In this document: positions 2,145 through 52,809 of the stretch, in pieces
Layout of the letters: every line of letters begins with the position of its first letter
Position numbering within the stretch: position 1 is the stretch's first letter
From: Cloeon dipterum
Taxonomy: Eukaryota; Arthropoda; Insecta; Ephemeroptera; Baetidae
Direction of reading: 5' to 3'
NCBI RefSeq assembly: GCF_949628265.1
Contig: NC_088786.1
Location: 2,232,001-2,296,000 of the forward strand
DNA: 64,000 nucleotides
Notes under the pieces: generated by a model
What the model was told of the DNA's origin: nothing
Seen by the model: only the letters and a program-made list of their open reading frames with translations
The model's database searches: none
Position numbers and translations under genes: made by a program

Positions 2145-4350
2145 ATGCCGACGAGGTATGCGATCGATTTAATATATTCTTTAAAACATAACAAATTTGT
2201 TACAGAAAGTGCAAAATAATGAGTGTCTCTTACCTTTTTTACCTCCGCAGAGACGAAGAAACTGAAGCAGAGTTGATTTCTTCTCTGCGAAATGAAAGGC
2301 GCAGAGCTGCTACTCCAGCAAGCTTGTTTGACAAGTGCCTAGATTACGTTATCAACAACGTGGAGGAACTTTTACGATCTGATCTCATTAAGCCTTCAGA
2401 TTTTTGTGGGTGTTTTATTTATTTCTGCCGCTGAGTATTGAAATATAAAATTTACTCTTAGCGAAGGAATCCGTATCGCAAAGAGTAATGGACAAGAGCA
2501 GAAGATGGTCGTCATCCATTTTTACCAGCGCGGAGGAGGCTGGAAAAGAATACCAGGAATACCTGCGTTCTTCTATGGTTCGTCGTCTGATTCTGTATAA
2601 TAAAGACTGCCAACTCCGCCATTTGAACGTATTTGACATCACTGTATTGGGGGACGATGAGCCCGATTGGTATTTGGAAGAGGCTTTGAAAAACTGTCGT
2701 CTACTGGAGCGTATAACCGCACCTTGTCCTCTCGATTACTCGGCTTCAAAGTCGGTTACCCTGGATTTTGCCACTCGTATCGTCCAAAGTTTCCCAGCAC
2801 TACGGATTTTGGACCTAACTGGTTTTTACATCACTAACGAGGCAATGAAACTGATTAGTGAAAAATTGCCTGATTTGACGTAAGTATTTTAACTTTTATT
2901 TAAAATCAAAAGATGCAATATGCAGACTTATAGAAAAATCAACCTGAGCGTTTTCGGAGACGACCGTAAATTCACAAGCGATCCTGGAACTAGTTACCTG
3001 GTGAATTTGAAAAATCTAACAGACATTGAGATTTCTCTCAAAAACTTTTTGGCCAGCAACGCATTCTACTATCACCTGCTGCTGGTTATTAGCGGTGGAA
3101 TGCCCAACTTGAAAAATATCCACATCAACCGACACGACTCTGATAGCATATATAACTCTTTCGTCCTCACTTCTTATGCCATGTAAATTCCTTGTATTTT
3201 TTTTTAAATTAAAATTAACAAAAATATTTAACAAATTTTCAGGATGATGAGCGTTGTTTTGCCTGATACACGAATGAACCTTCGACAGGTGGAGGTGATG
3301 AAACCGCTCAAGGTGGACTGGTCGTCAAACCTTTTCGTTGATTCTTGTCTGGTCGTCAACCCTTGTGCCGTTTGCACTGATAGCCAGCTCATGAAGCTTT
3401 GCAAAGTTCCTTGCGGAGTGCAAGAACTCATCTTGATTGACTGCAGCCGTCCCGAAGTTATCTACAAATTGCTCAGGCAACTCGGTCCTCAGCTGAAAAG
3501 GCTCAAACTGGAATATTTTTACGAAGATGAATTACTTGAGTCAGGCAAACGTTTAAAACTTTCCAAAGTAATGTTTCTGTGCCCAGAACTGGAGCACTTT
3601 CGAACCAACGATCTCATCCCCCTTGTGGCGAGTTCAAAGTACAAACTGACACCCAAACACTTGAAAAAAGTCAAGAGCTTTGAGCTCAGTGGAGAGTGCA
3701 CCAAGTGAGTAAAATTTATTATTTTTTCTTAAAGCGCAGTCGTAATAATTTTGAGCTTTTATTAGCCTTGAGATAGAGAGGCTAAAGCTATTCAGCGACA
3801 TCTTCCAAATGGTTTTGCTGGGCTCGCTGGACTGTAAAGTGCTAGAAGTGCAAAACGCCTACCTGCTGAAATCAATCGCCAGATTTCTCTCTGAAAACCC
3901 GGCCTGTCTAACGTACGTGGAAGTGTTCAATGCAGTGGCCTACCAAGCTAATGTGGACCTAGTGTGCGATATTGGCAGGTCGTTAATGATTCGCTCGCCA
4001 CACCTCCGAAGAATCGAAATCCATGGTTTCCAGAGGTAGAATTTCTAAGCTAGAATAATTAAAAGTAAACTTATGCAGTTTAATTTAACAGGAAGCTGTT
4101 GCCACATTGGTTTTTAAACATGACAGATCAGCTTGGCGTTCAGGTCGCGTGCAGTAGCTTGCACCCATGGATTGGCAATGTTACAAATATATGCCACACC
4201 TTTAGTGAGAGCAACAGCGCTTACTTTAACCAAGACTTCTGCTATACAGAGTGGAGCAGAAGAGGCAAGATGACTCCGTATGATGATTTCCACGCCCTGA
4301 TGGGAGACATACCAGAATATTTGCCTGCTTCTCGTTGCTGTTCCATGTGA
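2145..4350 (+). CDS. Leucine-rich-repeat-like protein (607 aa), tandem paralogue
   Basis: Model of seven exons: 2145-2155, 2251-2405, 2462-2879, 2934-3182, 3243-3704, 3766-4035 and 4092-4350. Together they give 1824 nt in one open frame. The start is a tiny first exon coding MPTR. An alternative acceptor near 2205 would add a few residues, so the N-terminus is less sure than the rest. The product begins with an acidic/basic helix and a segment SLFDKCLDYVINNVEELL, then leucine-rich repeats such as FPALRILDLTGFYI. It has no signal peptide, membrane span or catalytic motif. It matches the preceding gene exon for exon, which shows a local duplication. The role is unknown; a cytoplasmic protein-interaction role is inferred from the repeats only. 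Confidence 0.75.
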
Positions 4351-5473: not shown

Positions 5474-7003
5474 CTAGGATGAAGTTTGATTATGTTTTTC
5501 CAATGCGAAATCATGAAACCGGTTCCAAATTCTCATCTTCAGCGTCTCAAGGATTTCAGATTCTTGATCAACGGCAGGGTCGCCCTCAGCTACCTCTACC
5601 AGATATTCTCGTTTTTTTATTTCGAATTTAAATCTACGGTTCAACGATCCATTCATTAGTGATACGATGTATTCGAGGAATATTTCAGGTGTCATATTTA
5701 AAAATTTGTTGAGGAACGCATTACAATGCGTATTTTCCCCCAACTCCCAATTATCATCAACACAGTCATCAAAATTAACCGGGTTTAACAAACCTTCATT
5801 TGTTTCGTAGGTAAATGCAGCGTCTGAAATTTCGTCATATATGAGCGTAATTTTTGTCTCATTCAATAATGCCGCCAGGTGCGTCTTGACGTAATTACGA
5901 CTTTCCTCACTTACCATTACGTGGTATTTTTCTACACTAGCACGTGAGAATTGTGCCTTTTCAAAGAAAATCTTTCGTAACTCGTTACGATTTTCCGTCA
6001 GCTCAGTTGCATCCCAATGGTTGAAACTACGAGTTCGTCTTTTGTAAATATGAAATGCCGATTGGTCAAGAACATTGTTGAAAAGCACATTTAACTGTTT
6101 TTTTAAAGTTTTCCTGTCTTTAACGTAAACATCACTAAGAAGCGCTGCATCCGCGTTTATCCTGACTTTAGTCGAGCCGAGAAACGCCCTGAATGACCGA
6201 AGCCTCTCATCGTCCGTTCGTGAACCATTGAGAATTGGCGTGTTTATGAAAAATATCGATTCATTGAACGAAACTAAGTTTTCCCCAATGACCCCTAGCA
6301 ATTTTTCCAGTACAAGGATGAAAGGCTTTCGTGTCGATGCATCGAACTCATAGCCATAGGACGGTAAAACTAAAATCATCATCTCATCAGCCGAGTCAAA
6401 AATTAGTTTGGTTGTGAATCCGGCCGTTAAGTCAAAAAAGATTCTGTGGCTGCCTTCAAATCCAGACCAGTCAACAATCCACGACCCAGACTCGTCGTCC
6501 AAATAGAAGTTTGGAAAAATAGCATCCTCGATGTTCACGGCTTCTCCGATGTAGCCAATTGTGCCTTCTCGCAAAAATGTACCAAGACTGCTCTCTCGGC
6601 CATCTCCAAGAATGAGGATCGATTTGTTTTTGTTGTGAAGGTCTGTTTTTAGAAATGCCATCTATTTGAACATAAAAATTAGAAAAATTTAATTTTCCGG
6701 TGTTCATTATGAACTGAAAAAATATATATACTTCTCACAAATGAAACCTGTATTGATTTTTGTAGGACACTTACTTCTAAAAGACCATCAAGAGCAAGAA
6801 ATTCCCACTGATTTTCATAATTTGATGCTGCTACTGAAGACAGAAGAAGAGGCCAAATAATCTGAGAAACCTGAAAATGTTTCAGTATTGTAAGACAAAA
6901 AATATCCAAGCTTTATATGATTACAATCATACTTAATAGTTTTTGCACCTACTAGAAGCAAATACAGATGATGATAATAATAACTCACCAAATTTATGTA
7001 CAT
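5474..7003 (-). CDS. Predicted secreted GTPase-fold protein with degenerate P-loop (432 aa)
   Basis: Three exons on the minus strand: 7003-6989 (MYINL), 6870-6775 (32 codons) and 6661-5474 (395 codons). Both introns are phase 0. Exons 1-2 encode a hydrophobic leader (VSQIIWPLLLSSVAAS) that looks like a cleavable signal peptide. Exon 3 encodes a P-loop-GTPase-like domain: the G1 position reads GDGRESSL (no Lys), the G3-like site is VDWSG, and the G4 site is lost (INTP). It ends without an ER-retention signal or membrane anchor. A distal block with WDATELTENRNELRKIFFEKAQFS is shared with the paralogues at 8277-10074 and 51401-52809. Loss of the key Lys suggests it does not hydrolyse GTP (inference). 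The family is not recognised by name; it is closest in feel to TRAFAC/AIG1-like GTPases. Confidence 0.8.
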
Positions 7004-7115
7004 CGTTGTAGCTTTAGAACGATGCGTCTAATGTGTGGGCGCTGAAATAATCTTCTCTTCTGTGAGAGAAACAAAATGTTCTCTAGATACCCGACTGAGT
7101 TTGTCGTGGAGCAAA

Positions 7116-7125
7116 TATATATATA
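7116..7125 (-). promoter_or_regulatory. TATA-like element upstream of 5474-7003 gene
   Basis: On the minus strand an alternating TATATATATA run lies about 115 bp upstream of the ATG at 7003. The two paralogous genes also carry a TATA box, which supports its use. It could also be plain AT repeat. Confidence 0.4.
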
Positions 7126-8276
7126 CAATCATAATATTAATAATTTTGTTTATAGAACCTTCAACATTTATACATTTGGTAATCTTTTTTACTCCAATGG
7201 CCAACCTGACAATTAAAAGTCAGTGCATAGAATCCACCCTTTGATTGGTAGTGAAAGCATATAATTGCACTGTTCAGTAAAAATATGTTTTAAATTAGTT
7301 TTCAAAGTAAGATAAACACTTAAAATTTAGGAAAATAACATCTCGTCCCTTGTTTATTCATTACAAACACGAAAATACATACAAATAATGACGACAAAAA
7401 GGATTATGCTTTTAGATTGCTTATTATTTGACAGTTTGAGCGGTAAACATATATTCTTTGCTTTTGAGTCCACTAATTAACTCGGAAAGATTGCCGAATA
7501 TGTGACACACTCCATCCCTGATCCCTTCGGTTTAAACCTAGCACCAAAAGGGAAATAAAATTAATTGCACACAACTGCTAAAAGTTGGACGGCCTGCCCG
7601 CGCGCTATGGTTGCAGCGGCTCCCTGTTTGGTTATGCAACATGCTCTCTATTATTGTTAGCGGCGCTCCGTATAATTTATCACGGCTGCCTCTTTAACCG
7701 AAAATTCCAAACAAGCCCATGCTATACCTCTAACTTTTCATAATTGGAAACATAATTTAGCGTATTAATTCTCAGGGTTCGCAAAACACCTCATCCGAGC
7801 TGAATTCGGAAAATTCCGAAAAACTAAAACTGGTAGGTTTTTCCAGTTGGTTTTGTTGGCGCAAAAAACCAGTGATGCATTTTTGCGCATTGCAAAATTG
7901 GCGAACCCTGACAATTCTCGCATGCTTTGGTAAAAAATATTTTGAATAGAGAAATTAATAAAAGAGACAAGGAATTACACACGCAGGTTGCTAGTTACTT
8001 TATTTTAAATTTAAAGATCGCTGATTCAGAATTCGCAGCGAAGTTAATACTGTGCGTGCTGGTTATGAATTTTGTTTTGATAGTACACTGCTGATGAGTT
8101 ATTCCTCTTAGAATTCCGCTGTTATAGCTGACCATTCTATCTGAATAAACTTTCGCACAGAATAAAGCCAATGCCATTATCAAATTTTTCCCAAATAAAC
8201 ATTAATTCAATAACAGTTATGTGTAATTCGAATTTTGTCTTAAGTCTTATTTTTATCAAAACTATTTAACTATGCG
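7126..8276. other. Intergenic between tandem GTPase-like genes
   Basis: AT-rich, with a GC-richer stretch around 7590-7690 and one small hAT-like MITE (7773-7910). The short minus-strand open frame at 7995-8183 has no supporting features. Confidence 0.5.
7773..7910. mobile_element. hAT-like MITE, 138 bp
   Basis: The ends are CAGGGTTCGC and its exact reverse complement GCGAACCCTG, i.e. 10-bp terminal inverted repeats of hAT type. Flanks of 8 bp, TTAATTCT (7765-7772) and ACAATTCT (7911-7918), match at 6 of 8 positions, as expected for an old hAT target-site duplication. The interior is non-coding. Confidence 0.75.
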
Positions 8277-10074
8277 TTAAGTCCCCTTGAAATGCTCTAA
8301 AGTGACATTTTCCATGTGCGGGTATGTGTCTCCTGGTGCCGAGCCGAAATTCCTCTCCGCGTGTTGCTCTACAAGGTTTAGAACGCTAGTGTGAAATTTC
8401 CTTTTATTTTCCACATAATTCAGAATCATCGCTTTGTAGCCATACAGCTGCAATACATCAGTGTCGAGTTTAAATCTTTCTAGTCCTGTTATCTCTAAAA
8501 TGGAATGGAGCTTGCCAACTTGAAACTTCATTTCAACCCACAAGGTTTCATTCAATTCTGTGAGATAATCACGATATTCATCGAACGTGTGACCGATATT
8601 TTCAAGGCTTTTTATGTACAATTCACAGTTGAGAGCAGCCTTTTTAAAATTATATATCATTGGATGTTCCAGCGGAATCCACCTCATTAACCTTTGGTCA
8701 AAATCGCGGATGGCTCTATCATAAACGTTTGCAGAAAGCTCTTTAATTTTTGCCGTCACGTCAGGAATGAGCCTCTCGTGAACCAATTGTATGGTGGCTG
8801 CAGAAAAAGAAGCATTAAAGTCGTCAACGTAGGGCGTTGAAAACTGCAATTTCTCGAATATAAGCTTCCGCATGCGATCGTAATTTTTTTTCAATTCGGG
8901 ATAGTCCCAAGGACCGCTCTCCCAATATGGTCTTCGGAAAATGCCAAAATTGTTCCCCTCGAGGAGGTAAGACAAAAATGCTATTTGCCACGATATTTCC
9001 TCAGCTTTCGCTGCGTTTCCTTCAGATTCGCGCAGCCGCTGGAAGTGCTCTTTCGCTTTCTCTGTGTAAATTTTAACCGACTCAATTTGATCATCATCTG
9101 TTAAAAAATTATCTACTTTTGTCGATACCAAAGCGACGGAATTTTTGAACGAAACGTGATTTCTCCCAACGATGCGCATTATTCTTTCTAGAACACTCGT
9201 GAATGCCGTCAAGTAATAATTCAGTTTCAGATTGGCATCTGGAGTTACAATTACAATTTTCAATTGCCGGGTCGTCTTAAATATAGTTCTAGTGAAAAAT
9301 GTGCTGACGAAATCAATTTCAGCATGGCGCGGCTCGTCCAATCCTGGCAAATCCACGATCGTCGTTCCGTATTCTTCGTCCGAATTAATATTTGGGTAGA
9401 TTGAATGTTTGGTAAAACTGTCGCTGCTGCAGATTGTGGCATTGTTGTCGGCAAAAATTAGTTCTCGCTGTTCGTTTCTTTTGATGGAAAGGGTTTTGTC
9501 TCTGCGCAAAAATTTGCTCAGCGTACTTTTTCCAGCCAATGGGTCTCCAAGCATAACGATCAACTCCTTCTCGCTCTCCAGCTTTGATGCAAGAGGTTCG
9601 TAACTCTACAACAAATTTTAATGACGTGTGCCATATATTTAAAGAGTCATTTTCTTACACAATTTTATGACTTTGCATTTGCACTTAAAACTAGATTTTT
9701 ATAATATAAGGTATTAGAAAATCCGGAAAAGTCATTGGAATAAAAAAATCTGTCGCTGCGTGCCAACGAACTTGGGTTAAATGAGAGGCCAGTGTATTAA
9801 TTTAGAAAAATAAAAAAGTGTACACGAGATACCTTAATAAACGAGTCCATAACAGTTTCATTTTCACGCTTGTTGCCCTCAGATTGTGCAGAATAAACAA
9901 GTGATATCACGCTGAGGATCTGCAGTGCCTTTAATGAAAAATGATAGGTACCAAAGAAAATAAAAATTACTTGTGAGTTAATTTTACTCGGCAATTAATT
10001 GTACAAATGGACTGATAGAAACATAATATTATTATGTTGTAAAAATATTAAATACATACCCAGAGAAAGTGCAT
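8277..10074 (-). CDS. Predicted secreted GTPase-fold protein with intact P-loop (479 aa)
   Basis: Three exons on the minus strand: 10074-10060 (MHFLW), 9928-9833 (32 codons) and 9605-8277 (442 codons). Both introns are phase 0. The leader (ALQILSVISLVYSAQS) looks like a signal peptide cleaved near YSA-QS. The domain begins at once with G1 = GDPLAGKST (a full GxxxxGKS/T P-loop), G3 = VDLPG and G4 = TKVD, so this member keeps nucleotide-binding motifs. Further on, FRRPYWESGPWDYPELKKN and IFEKLQFSTPYVDDF are shared with the paralogues. The C-terminal third is helical and ends without KDEL or a membrane span. Exon 1 and exon 2 have exactly the same lengths as in the gene at 5474-7003. Cell site (secreted or ER lumen) and role are inferred; the biochemical target is unknown. 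Confidence 0.85.
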
Positions 10075-51400: not shown

Positions 51401-52809
51401 ATGAAAATGATGGAATGTGGAAAGGTACGTATTCCGAATTCCAAAATCCGTTTGCATAATAAAAGCAATTGTTTTTTCATAATAAATATTTCAGATTCTG
51501 AAAGTGCTTGTGTTTTCGCTTATTGTTGGGGCCTCCACCCTTCCGGATCAGGACGATTTAAGCGATTTAATTTTACAGGTATGAACCTTAACCACTTCAT
51601 GAAACATAATAATAATAATCACGCGTTGAGAGCTGAAATGCATAATAATTTTTCTCTTTGGAGTAGATCGGCTATAACGAACTCGACATAAATGGGAAGG
51701 ACAAATTCATTGTGATTCTCGGAGATGTCGACGGGGGAGAAAGCGAATTTAGTAATGTGTTGCTAAACGTCTCAACCAAGCCTAGAAAAGCGCGCACAAG
51801 CGTTTACCTCCCCAGTGTAATGTCTGACGCCAAATCCGGATCTTTGGTGATCGATTTACCCGGATTTCACGACAGCCGCAACAGCATTGCTGATTTGGCA
51901 GCTGGATTTTTTAATAAGATCGTGTTCGACTCAGTCAAACGAGTGAAAATTGTAATTATGACGACAGCAAATGAAACGCAAAATGTCGACTCATTGCTGG
52001 ACAAACTGGTTCAAATAGTCGGGGAAAACTATATTGGCCTGGACAAGTCTGTCTCTGTTGTTATCACGAAAGCCGACAATTCTACATCAGACGAGGAAGA
52101 GATAGATAATTTTGTTAAGAAAATTATTTTCGACTATTTCGTGAGTGTAGAAAAGTTTGGCGAGCAATTTTACCTGCAGAAGAGGGCCTTGCTCTCGAGT
52201 TTACTCAAGCAAAATTTCACCGCTGTGTTTAAAAGACCAACTAAAGAGGGAAATCCCTGGGACGCCCTTGAAATGAAAGAAAATCACCGAGAATTGCGGC
52301 TAATGATTTTTGAAAATGTCAAGTTCTCCAGTCCGTTCCTGGAAAGATGTCGCACAGTCGTTGCGAATGCGACAATCAAGAGACACGCTTCTTCAATTTT
52401 GGACGACTCTGTTATTACTCTGATTGCCGATATGATGCTCAAATTAATATTGGTAAACGTGTTGAATGCAAATTTTAGCAATAAGCTCTCGGTCGTTGCT
52501 GATATCAAACTCGAGGAATTTTATGAGTTTCAACAAATGTTTTCAAACCTAACTCGGGAAGAGTTTCATGATTACATCATACGGTTTGGTGAACCATTTT
52601 GGTTCGATATGAAATTTGAAATTAAAAAATTCGAGTTTGTTAGAAGCGCAATAACGGGTGACACATCTGACCAGGAATCGCCCGTCTTGGACGAGCTCAA
52701 GTTATGGATGTTAAGACGGTTGGACAGATTAGAATACATTATTTTACACTATAATCAACAGCAAAACACTCCTCACGAGGAGCCAACAACACCGCATTCA
52801 GATAATTAA
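51401..52809 (+). CDS. Predicted secreted GTPase-fold protein, partly degenerate (416 aa)
   Basis: Three exons: 51401-51424, 51495-51578 and 51667-52809, with both introns phase 0. The leader KILKVLVFSLIVGASTLP looks like a signal peptide. Start at the first of three nearby Met codons; starting at the third (51410) would give the same five-codon exon 1 as the two paralogues. G1 reads GDVDGGESE (Glu in place of the P-loop Lys), G3 is intact (IDLPGFHDS), and G4 is TKAD. FKRPTKEGNPWDALEMKEN and IFENVKFSSPF match the paralogues at 5474-10074. There is no anchor or KDEL; the tail is polar. It therefore keeps part of the nucleotide site but probably binds GTP weakly or not at all (inference). It stands 41 kb from the tandem pair and on the other strand. 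Confidence 0.85.

Follow-up and report, generated by a model that had tools for sequence, protein, structure and literature searches.

Can a protein with a GTPase-type fold be made for export rather than for work in the cytosol? The question is raised by two adjacent minus-strand genes, here called A and B, in a stretch of 64,000 nucleotides (nt) from the mayfly Cloeon dipterum (the window; positions 2,232,001-2,296,000 of contig C1 in the assembly searched, which comprises 190 Mb on ten contigs). Switches driven by GTP are normally cytosolic, and a GTPase-like family carrying an export signal would therefore be unusual. Each of the two genes has two small exons that together encode a signal-peptide-like leader, followed by one large exon encoding a G domain that is intact in B and degenerate in A. 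Taken together, the data point to an arthropod GTPase family with a branch in the secretory pathway, this branch being made up of one likely active member and a fast-evolving radiation of pseudoGTPases, a reading to which we give roughly even chances of being right as a whole. The two genes are laid out in the window as follows.

10060..10074, minus strand: gene B exon 1, 15 nt, encoding MHFLW (from the splice check and identity to the NCBI protein)
9833..9928, minus strand: gene B exon 2, 96 nt, remainder of the signal-peptide-like leader
8277..9605, minus strand: gene B exon 3, encoding the G domain and a helical C-terminal region, including the stop
9525..9548, minus strand: gene B intact P-loop, GDPLAGKS
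6989..7003, minus strand: gene A exon 1, 15 nt, encoding MYINL
6775..6870, minus strand: gene A exon 2, 96 nt, or 87 nt if an alternative acceptor is used, remainder of the leader
5474..6661, minus strand: gene A exon 3, predicted pseudoGTPase domain, including the stop
6584..6607, minus strand: gene A degenerate P-loop, GDGRESSL
7094..7125, minus strand: gene A candidate core promoter, TATATAT at 7125-7119 and TCAGT at 7098-7094

The preliminary description of this locus gave both genes a 15-nt exon, a 96-nt exon and one large exon, all in phase 0, and these coordinates were confirmed. The splice check returned GT-AG introns in phase 0 throughout, and the spliced product of B (479 amino acids) is identical to the NCBI entry 'uncharacterized protein LOC135934745 [Cloeon dipterum]'. 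No NCBI record for A was among the matches of a word-limited protein search that had B as query. The leader starts with MHFLWALQILSVISLVYSA in B and with MYINLVSQIIWPLLLSSVAAS in A. For A, a 15/87 model using an acceptor 9 nt further on scored 16.8 in the splice model against 15.4 for 15/96; the latter is favoured because exon 2 starts with VSF in the paralogs L032 and L033 and with VSQ in A. Exon 2 of A was also matched in two paralogs on contig C2 at 72% identity. The TATATAT and the TCAGT, which we take to be an initiator from its consensus, lie 122 nt and 95 nt ahead of the A start codon, respectively. TATATAT is found at -253 in B and at -69 in gene C, a third family member introduced below, whilst TCAGT occurs in neither within the stretch scanned. 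Between A and B, from 8177 downwards on the minus strand, there is an ATG-led hydrophobic stretch, MALALFCAKVYSDRM, possibly a relic leader exon.

The G motifs reported for the pair are intact in B, where GDPLAGKST (G1), DLPG (G3) and TKVD (G4) occur in this order. In A they read GDGRESSL and DWSG, with no TKxD; A has no G1 lysine, and its motifs do not make it a GTPase. When 58 G domains of the family were combined into a profile, this aligned to E. coli Era, YihA, Der and MnmE with a probability of 96.0% (E 4.3e-9) across 133 columns, G1, G3 and G4 all being in register, and FtsY reached 36% against the family profile. A second profile, built from the 12 degenerate short members, did not match the GTPases (1.1%) but matched the family at 99.8% (E 1.5e-30). 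Given that A is homologous by profile yet without the G1 lysine and G4, it is best described as a putative pseudoGTPase. No curated Pfam family was matched above its cut-off by A or B: B reached 16.0 bits for MMR_HSR1 (PF01926) against a cut-off of 21.9, and A had no Pfam match up to E 1. Searches of Pfam, NCBIfam and PDB sequences returned mostly sub-cut-off P-loop matches for the family (B in NCBIfam had these only) and none for A, and PADLOC returned nothing for B. The PF01926 cut-off is exceeded by P0047 and P0049, homologues found with the family profile, and by the bacterial homologues L064 and L065. These comparisons support a GTPase-type G domain in the family as predicted from sequence.

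The preliminary description had named AIG1, dynamin and septin as families to compare; none of the three was matched above its cut-off. PF04548 (AIG1/GIMAP) was unmatched by A or B up to E 1 and had 0 genome-wide matches at E <= 0.001, Dynamin_N (PF00350) scored 14.7 bits in B against a cut-off of 27, and the Pfam matches listed for the two genes up to E 1 did not include PF00735 (septin).

A whole-genome search gave 48 places with B as query and 43 with A, which merged into 45 family places when starts less than 1.5 kb apart were joined; 41 of the 45 were at E 0.001 or better. The tandem pair is therefore a pair in that A and B are adjacent, but it is part of a family with at least 45 genome places. 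One of these is gene C, the third family member in the window (51401-52809, plus strand), approximately 41 kb from the A/B pair and on the opposite strand.

51401..51424, plus strand: gene C exon 1, 24 nt (18 or 15 nt if later ATGs are used)
51495..51578, plus strand: gene C exon 2, 84 nt, remainder of the leader
51667..52809, plus strand: gene C exon 3, 1143 nt, predicted pseudoGTPase domain, including the stop
51721-51744, plus strand: gene C degenerate P-loop, GDVDGGES; DLPG and TKAD retained

Family frames fall into a long class of 614 to 1679 residues, with a glycine-rich GxxG stretch in those read through, and a short class, mostly of 380-457 residues. The short class includes A, B and C, together with a pair at 16.2 Mb on contig C2 and a cluster at 0.54-0.71 Mb on contig C4. 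In three further mayfly members (L023, L024, L025) the leader and the G domain lie within one exon.

Spliced models of the short loci were searched for the leader plan, defined as an exon 1 of 12-30 nt, an exon 2 of 84-102 nt, phases 0/0 and a hydrophobic leader. It was present in 13/13 short loci, compared with 4 of 390 dinucleotide-shuffled versions of the upstream DNA of the same 13 loci; with exon sizes left free, 84 of these controls gave some model that exceeded the score limit. The size window was chosen after the 13 loci had been seen, the weights for splice sites, the hydropathy values and the rules for cleavage were set by hand, and the splice thresholds were relaxed to the point at which the search returned A and B, with identical values applied to the controls. 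Under strict thresholds the plan was found in 4 of 15 listed loci, and two of these four are one gene. Moreover, L032 and L033 have a common leader, so that the 13 loci are not all independent. Four of seven short loci fetched later also carried the plan, giving 17/20 overall, with at least 4 further weak places left out. The shared exon plan is thus supported as a family trait beyond chance. The exact 15/96 sizes of A and B are not universal, however, as other loci have 15/93, 24/84, 18/84, 18/102 or 15/102, and the best-ranked models for L030, L032, L039 and L060 have a longer exon 1 or a shorter exon 2.

The leaders of these 13 short loci are of signal-peptide type by simple rules. Each has a hydrophobic core of 9-16 residues, an N-terminal start with a net charge of +1 or +2 (amino terminus counted) and a possible small-residue cleavage site (13/13), and the 15 residues past that site are net acidic in 10 of the 13. 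B contains no strong second hydrophobic stretch (best 19-residue mean 0.80). The C-termini of A (KHNQTSS), B (LEHFKGT) and C (PHSDN) carry no KDEL-like tail, making release the default. From these features the short members very probably enter the secretory pathway. The leaders first noted in A and B extend to most of the short loci, but not to a large set of long relatives with an intact P-loop; likewise, of the secretory or endoplasmic reticulum (ER) role proposed for the pair, the leader is supported, whilst secretion itself is a prediction from simple sequence rules.

B stands apart from the other short members in its catalytic residues. The P-loop lysine is present in B and in 0/12 of the other short rows, compared with 15/15 of the long members L002-L016, 6/6 of the other long mayfly rows and 39/40 of the homologue rows P0003-P0042, the remaining row being a gap. 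The switch-I threonine follows a similar distribution: it is a serine in B, and is found in 0/12 of the other short rows, 14/15 of L002-L016, 5/6 of the other long rows and 40/40 of P0003-P0042. Gene C has lost the lysine. In a tree of 73 G-domain rows (truncated and weak rows omitted, midpoint root) the 13 short rows grouped together (96/90), B branching as sister to all the remaining 12 (100/97), and this group joined L002-L016 with weaker support (95/65). With B in that position a single loss suffices, and the lysine and the switch-I threonine were probably lost once. Loss of the motifs is observed in A, C and the ten other short members, which we class as predicted pseudoGTPases that presumably do not bind nucleotide, whilst B is likely to do so. 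All 12 degenerate members keep frames of 380-457 codons. The ratio of non-synonymous to synonymous substitution (dN/dS) ranged from 0.48 to 0.71 across six short pairs and from 0.25 to 0.49 across eight long ones, values that carry no significance test.

The long members L002-L016 lie in clusters on contigs C1 (41.1-41.2 Mb), C2 (35.9 Mb) and C3 (5.6 Mb), and have an intact P-loop and the glycine-rich GxxG stretch. In 14 of the 15 (all but L011) a first exon, for example MKEETINLDMVLK or MAEATRNVQELDSLLR, lies just upstream of the large exon in phase 0 and contains no hydrophobic stretch; these exons were chosen by eye among candidates, without a shuffled control. On this sequence evidence the long relatives look cytosolic. 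Their first exons end in LDxxLK or LDxxLR, like the end of exon 2 in the short genes. The last intron is therefore probably common to long and short genes, which would mean either that one branch acquired the leader or that the other lost it.

Outside the mayfly, a word-limited protein search with a 12-sequence profile found at least 50 proteins. Among the matches listed were the whitefly Bemisia tabaci and five spider species of Trichonephila, Larinioides and Caerostris. Given the word limit, absence from other groups is uninformative. A leader-like start (10-residue window, mean hydropathy of at least 2.0) was present in 24 of the 42 rows P0001-P0042, including Bemisia. Distant bacterial relatives from Rickettsiales-type genomes were also among the matches listed, namely a Rickettsia endosymbiont protein (P0045), a Rickettsiaceae protein (L064) and an alphaproteobacterial protein (L065), with 22-28% identity to the query. 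L065 (3584-5881, plus strand), from a metagenome-assembled genome, combines a leader-like start with a U-box (58.3 bits), typically a eukaryotic domain, and an MMR_HSR1-type G domain.

In the secretory-branch reading given at the outset, the first two exons would encode a cleavable signal peptide that takes the G domain into the ER lumen. Without a further anchor or a retention tail, the protein would then be secreted or kept in a lumenal compartment. B, with its P-loop lysine, DxxG and TKxD, would be the nucleotide-binding member, whereas A, C and the ten others lack both the P-loop lysine and the threonine of switch I, a single loss being the simplest account, and their frames have stayed open and constrained. 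As the likeliest mechanism, the G domains may serve as assembly modules, the nucleotide-free members joining one another or B in complexes in the manner of degenerate septins; by this analogy, a role of the pseudoGTPases as assembly partners is conceivable, and we put it forward tentatively. That the family has expanded and evolves fast faintly suggests a task that varies, for instance defence, although we consider a defence role itself rather doubtful. A broader and somewhat speculative scenario is a GTP-type switch or assembly system at work outside the cytosol: an insect lineage would have re-routed a G-domain family into the secretory pathway through changed first exons, and one catalytic GTPase would now act in the lumen or outside the cell with at least a dozen pseudoGTPase partners. 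Such a set might be the exported equivalent of the immune GTPases that act cell-autonomously.

A number of results weigh against the secretory-branch reading. The leader rules are simple, hand-set ones rather than a trained predictor, and enrichment of sequons failed as a mark of secretion (z >2 in 8/74 rows and <-2 in 3/74). Three of the seven later short loci lack the plan (C4 536k, which has a short frame, C1 14.8M and C4 561k), and 14/15 of L002-L016 have no leader, with an acidic first exon of 30-48 nt instead. A leader-like start was found in 0/7 spider rows, although first exons may be missing from the spider models. As for the G domain, three ABC proteins used as a control reached 94.0%, but across 24 P-loop columns only, and two AAA proteins reached 86.7% (E 4.4e-6) across 169 columns; both identities were dropped after the profile comparison. 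At the alignment column assigned to the G4 aspartate, P-loop-intact rows too differ among themselves, perhaps partly through alignment shift, and strict guanine specificity is therefore not assured.

Four other explanations were considered. The short proteins may stay and work within the secretory pathway instead of leaving the cell, with the lumen of the ER, the Golgi, a granule or the lysosome/vacuole as their place of action. This overlaps with the preferred reading and is consistent with a leader that predicts ER entry only, but release is the default for A, B and C in view of their C-termini, and strictly internal work seems on the unlikely side. The hydrophobic start could alternatively be an uncleaved anchor holding a cytosolic G domain, as N-terminal anchors are found in the signal-recognition-particle receptor beta subunit and some other membrane GTPases. 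A core of only 9-16 residues and cleavage-type small residues in every leader speak against this, and the acidic flank after the core favours a lumenal C-terminal side, making an anchor improbable.

It is still less probable that the leader exons are unused and that translation starts in exon 3 to give cytosolic proteins. An ATG does open exon 3 of A, and the long P-loop-intact relatives look cytosolic; exon 3 of B, however, opens with a non-Met residue, the NCBI model of B includes the leader, the plan is maintained across diverged paralogs and promoter-like elements lie just ahead of exon 1 of A. Finally, A, C and the C4 cluster might be decaying copies without function, in keeping with their lost catalytic residues, a dN/dS above that of the long pairs and the short frame of C4 536k. 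Against decay, 12/12 keep both their open frames and their leader exons, dN/dS stays below 1 (again without a significance test) and the tree fits one loss followed by radiation, so that we regard it as very improbable indeed. Should the secretory-branch reading be correct, a conserved, expanding family with exported and cytosolic-looking relatives that have a matching exon boundary in one genome would offer a direct test of whether GTP serves as a signal or assembly cofactor extracellularly or in the lumen of the ER, and of the part that pseudoGTPases play in these places.

Elsewhere in the window, four plus-strand open frames (74-727, 764-1099, 2449-2883 and 3232-3708) are alike in leucine-rich style; the three of them that were scanned had no Pfam match at E 0.01. 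Other neighbours identified with Pfam encode Put_Phosphatase (PF06888; 12930-13682, minus strand), DnaJ (PF00226; 33349-33870, minus strand) and a TARBP1-domain protein (PF25050; 57633-59732, minus strand).

Lastly, the family was compared with known systems. No description of a signal-peptide GTPase family of this kind was found in the open-licence literature, and the term 'GTPase' is absent from passages of the Cloeon genome paper (PMC7250882). One likeness is to TRAFAC-type GTPases such as Era, YihA, Der and MnmE, which are of the MMR_HSR1 kind (PF01926) and with which G1, G3 and G4 are in register; unlike these, the mayfly short members have a signal-peptide-like leader, a long helical part and mostly no P-loop lysine. 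The G-domain proteins of intracellular bacteria (P0045, L064, L065) share a DCPGF-D or DLPGF-D motif and G-domain similarity, and L065 also the leader-like start, but they carry LRR, TPR or U-box partners that set them apart from the mayfly family. Degenerate septins are likewise part of a G-domain paralog lineage in which some members have lost the nucleotide pocket (PMC10731463); they are cytosolic, however, and the likeness is one of analogy only. Human GBP-1 shares the theme of an extracellular GTPase, yet it is reported to be released by a non-classical, caspase-1-linked route and to have no signal peptide of its own (PMC5571548). Set beside these systems, the short mayfly members combine a GTPase-type fold with a predicted export leader, are mostly predicted pseudoGTPases and belong to no curated Pfam family.

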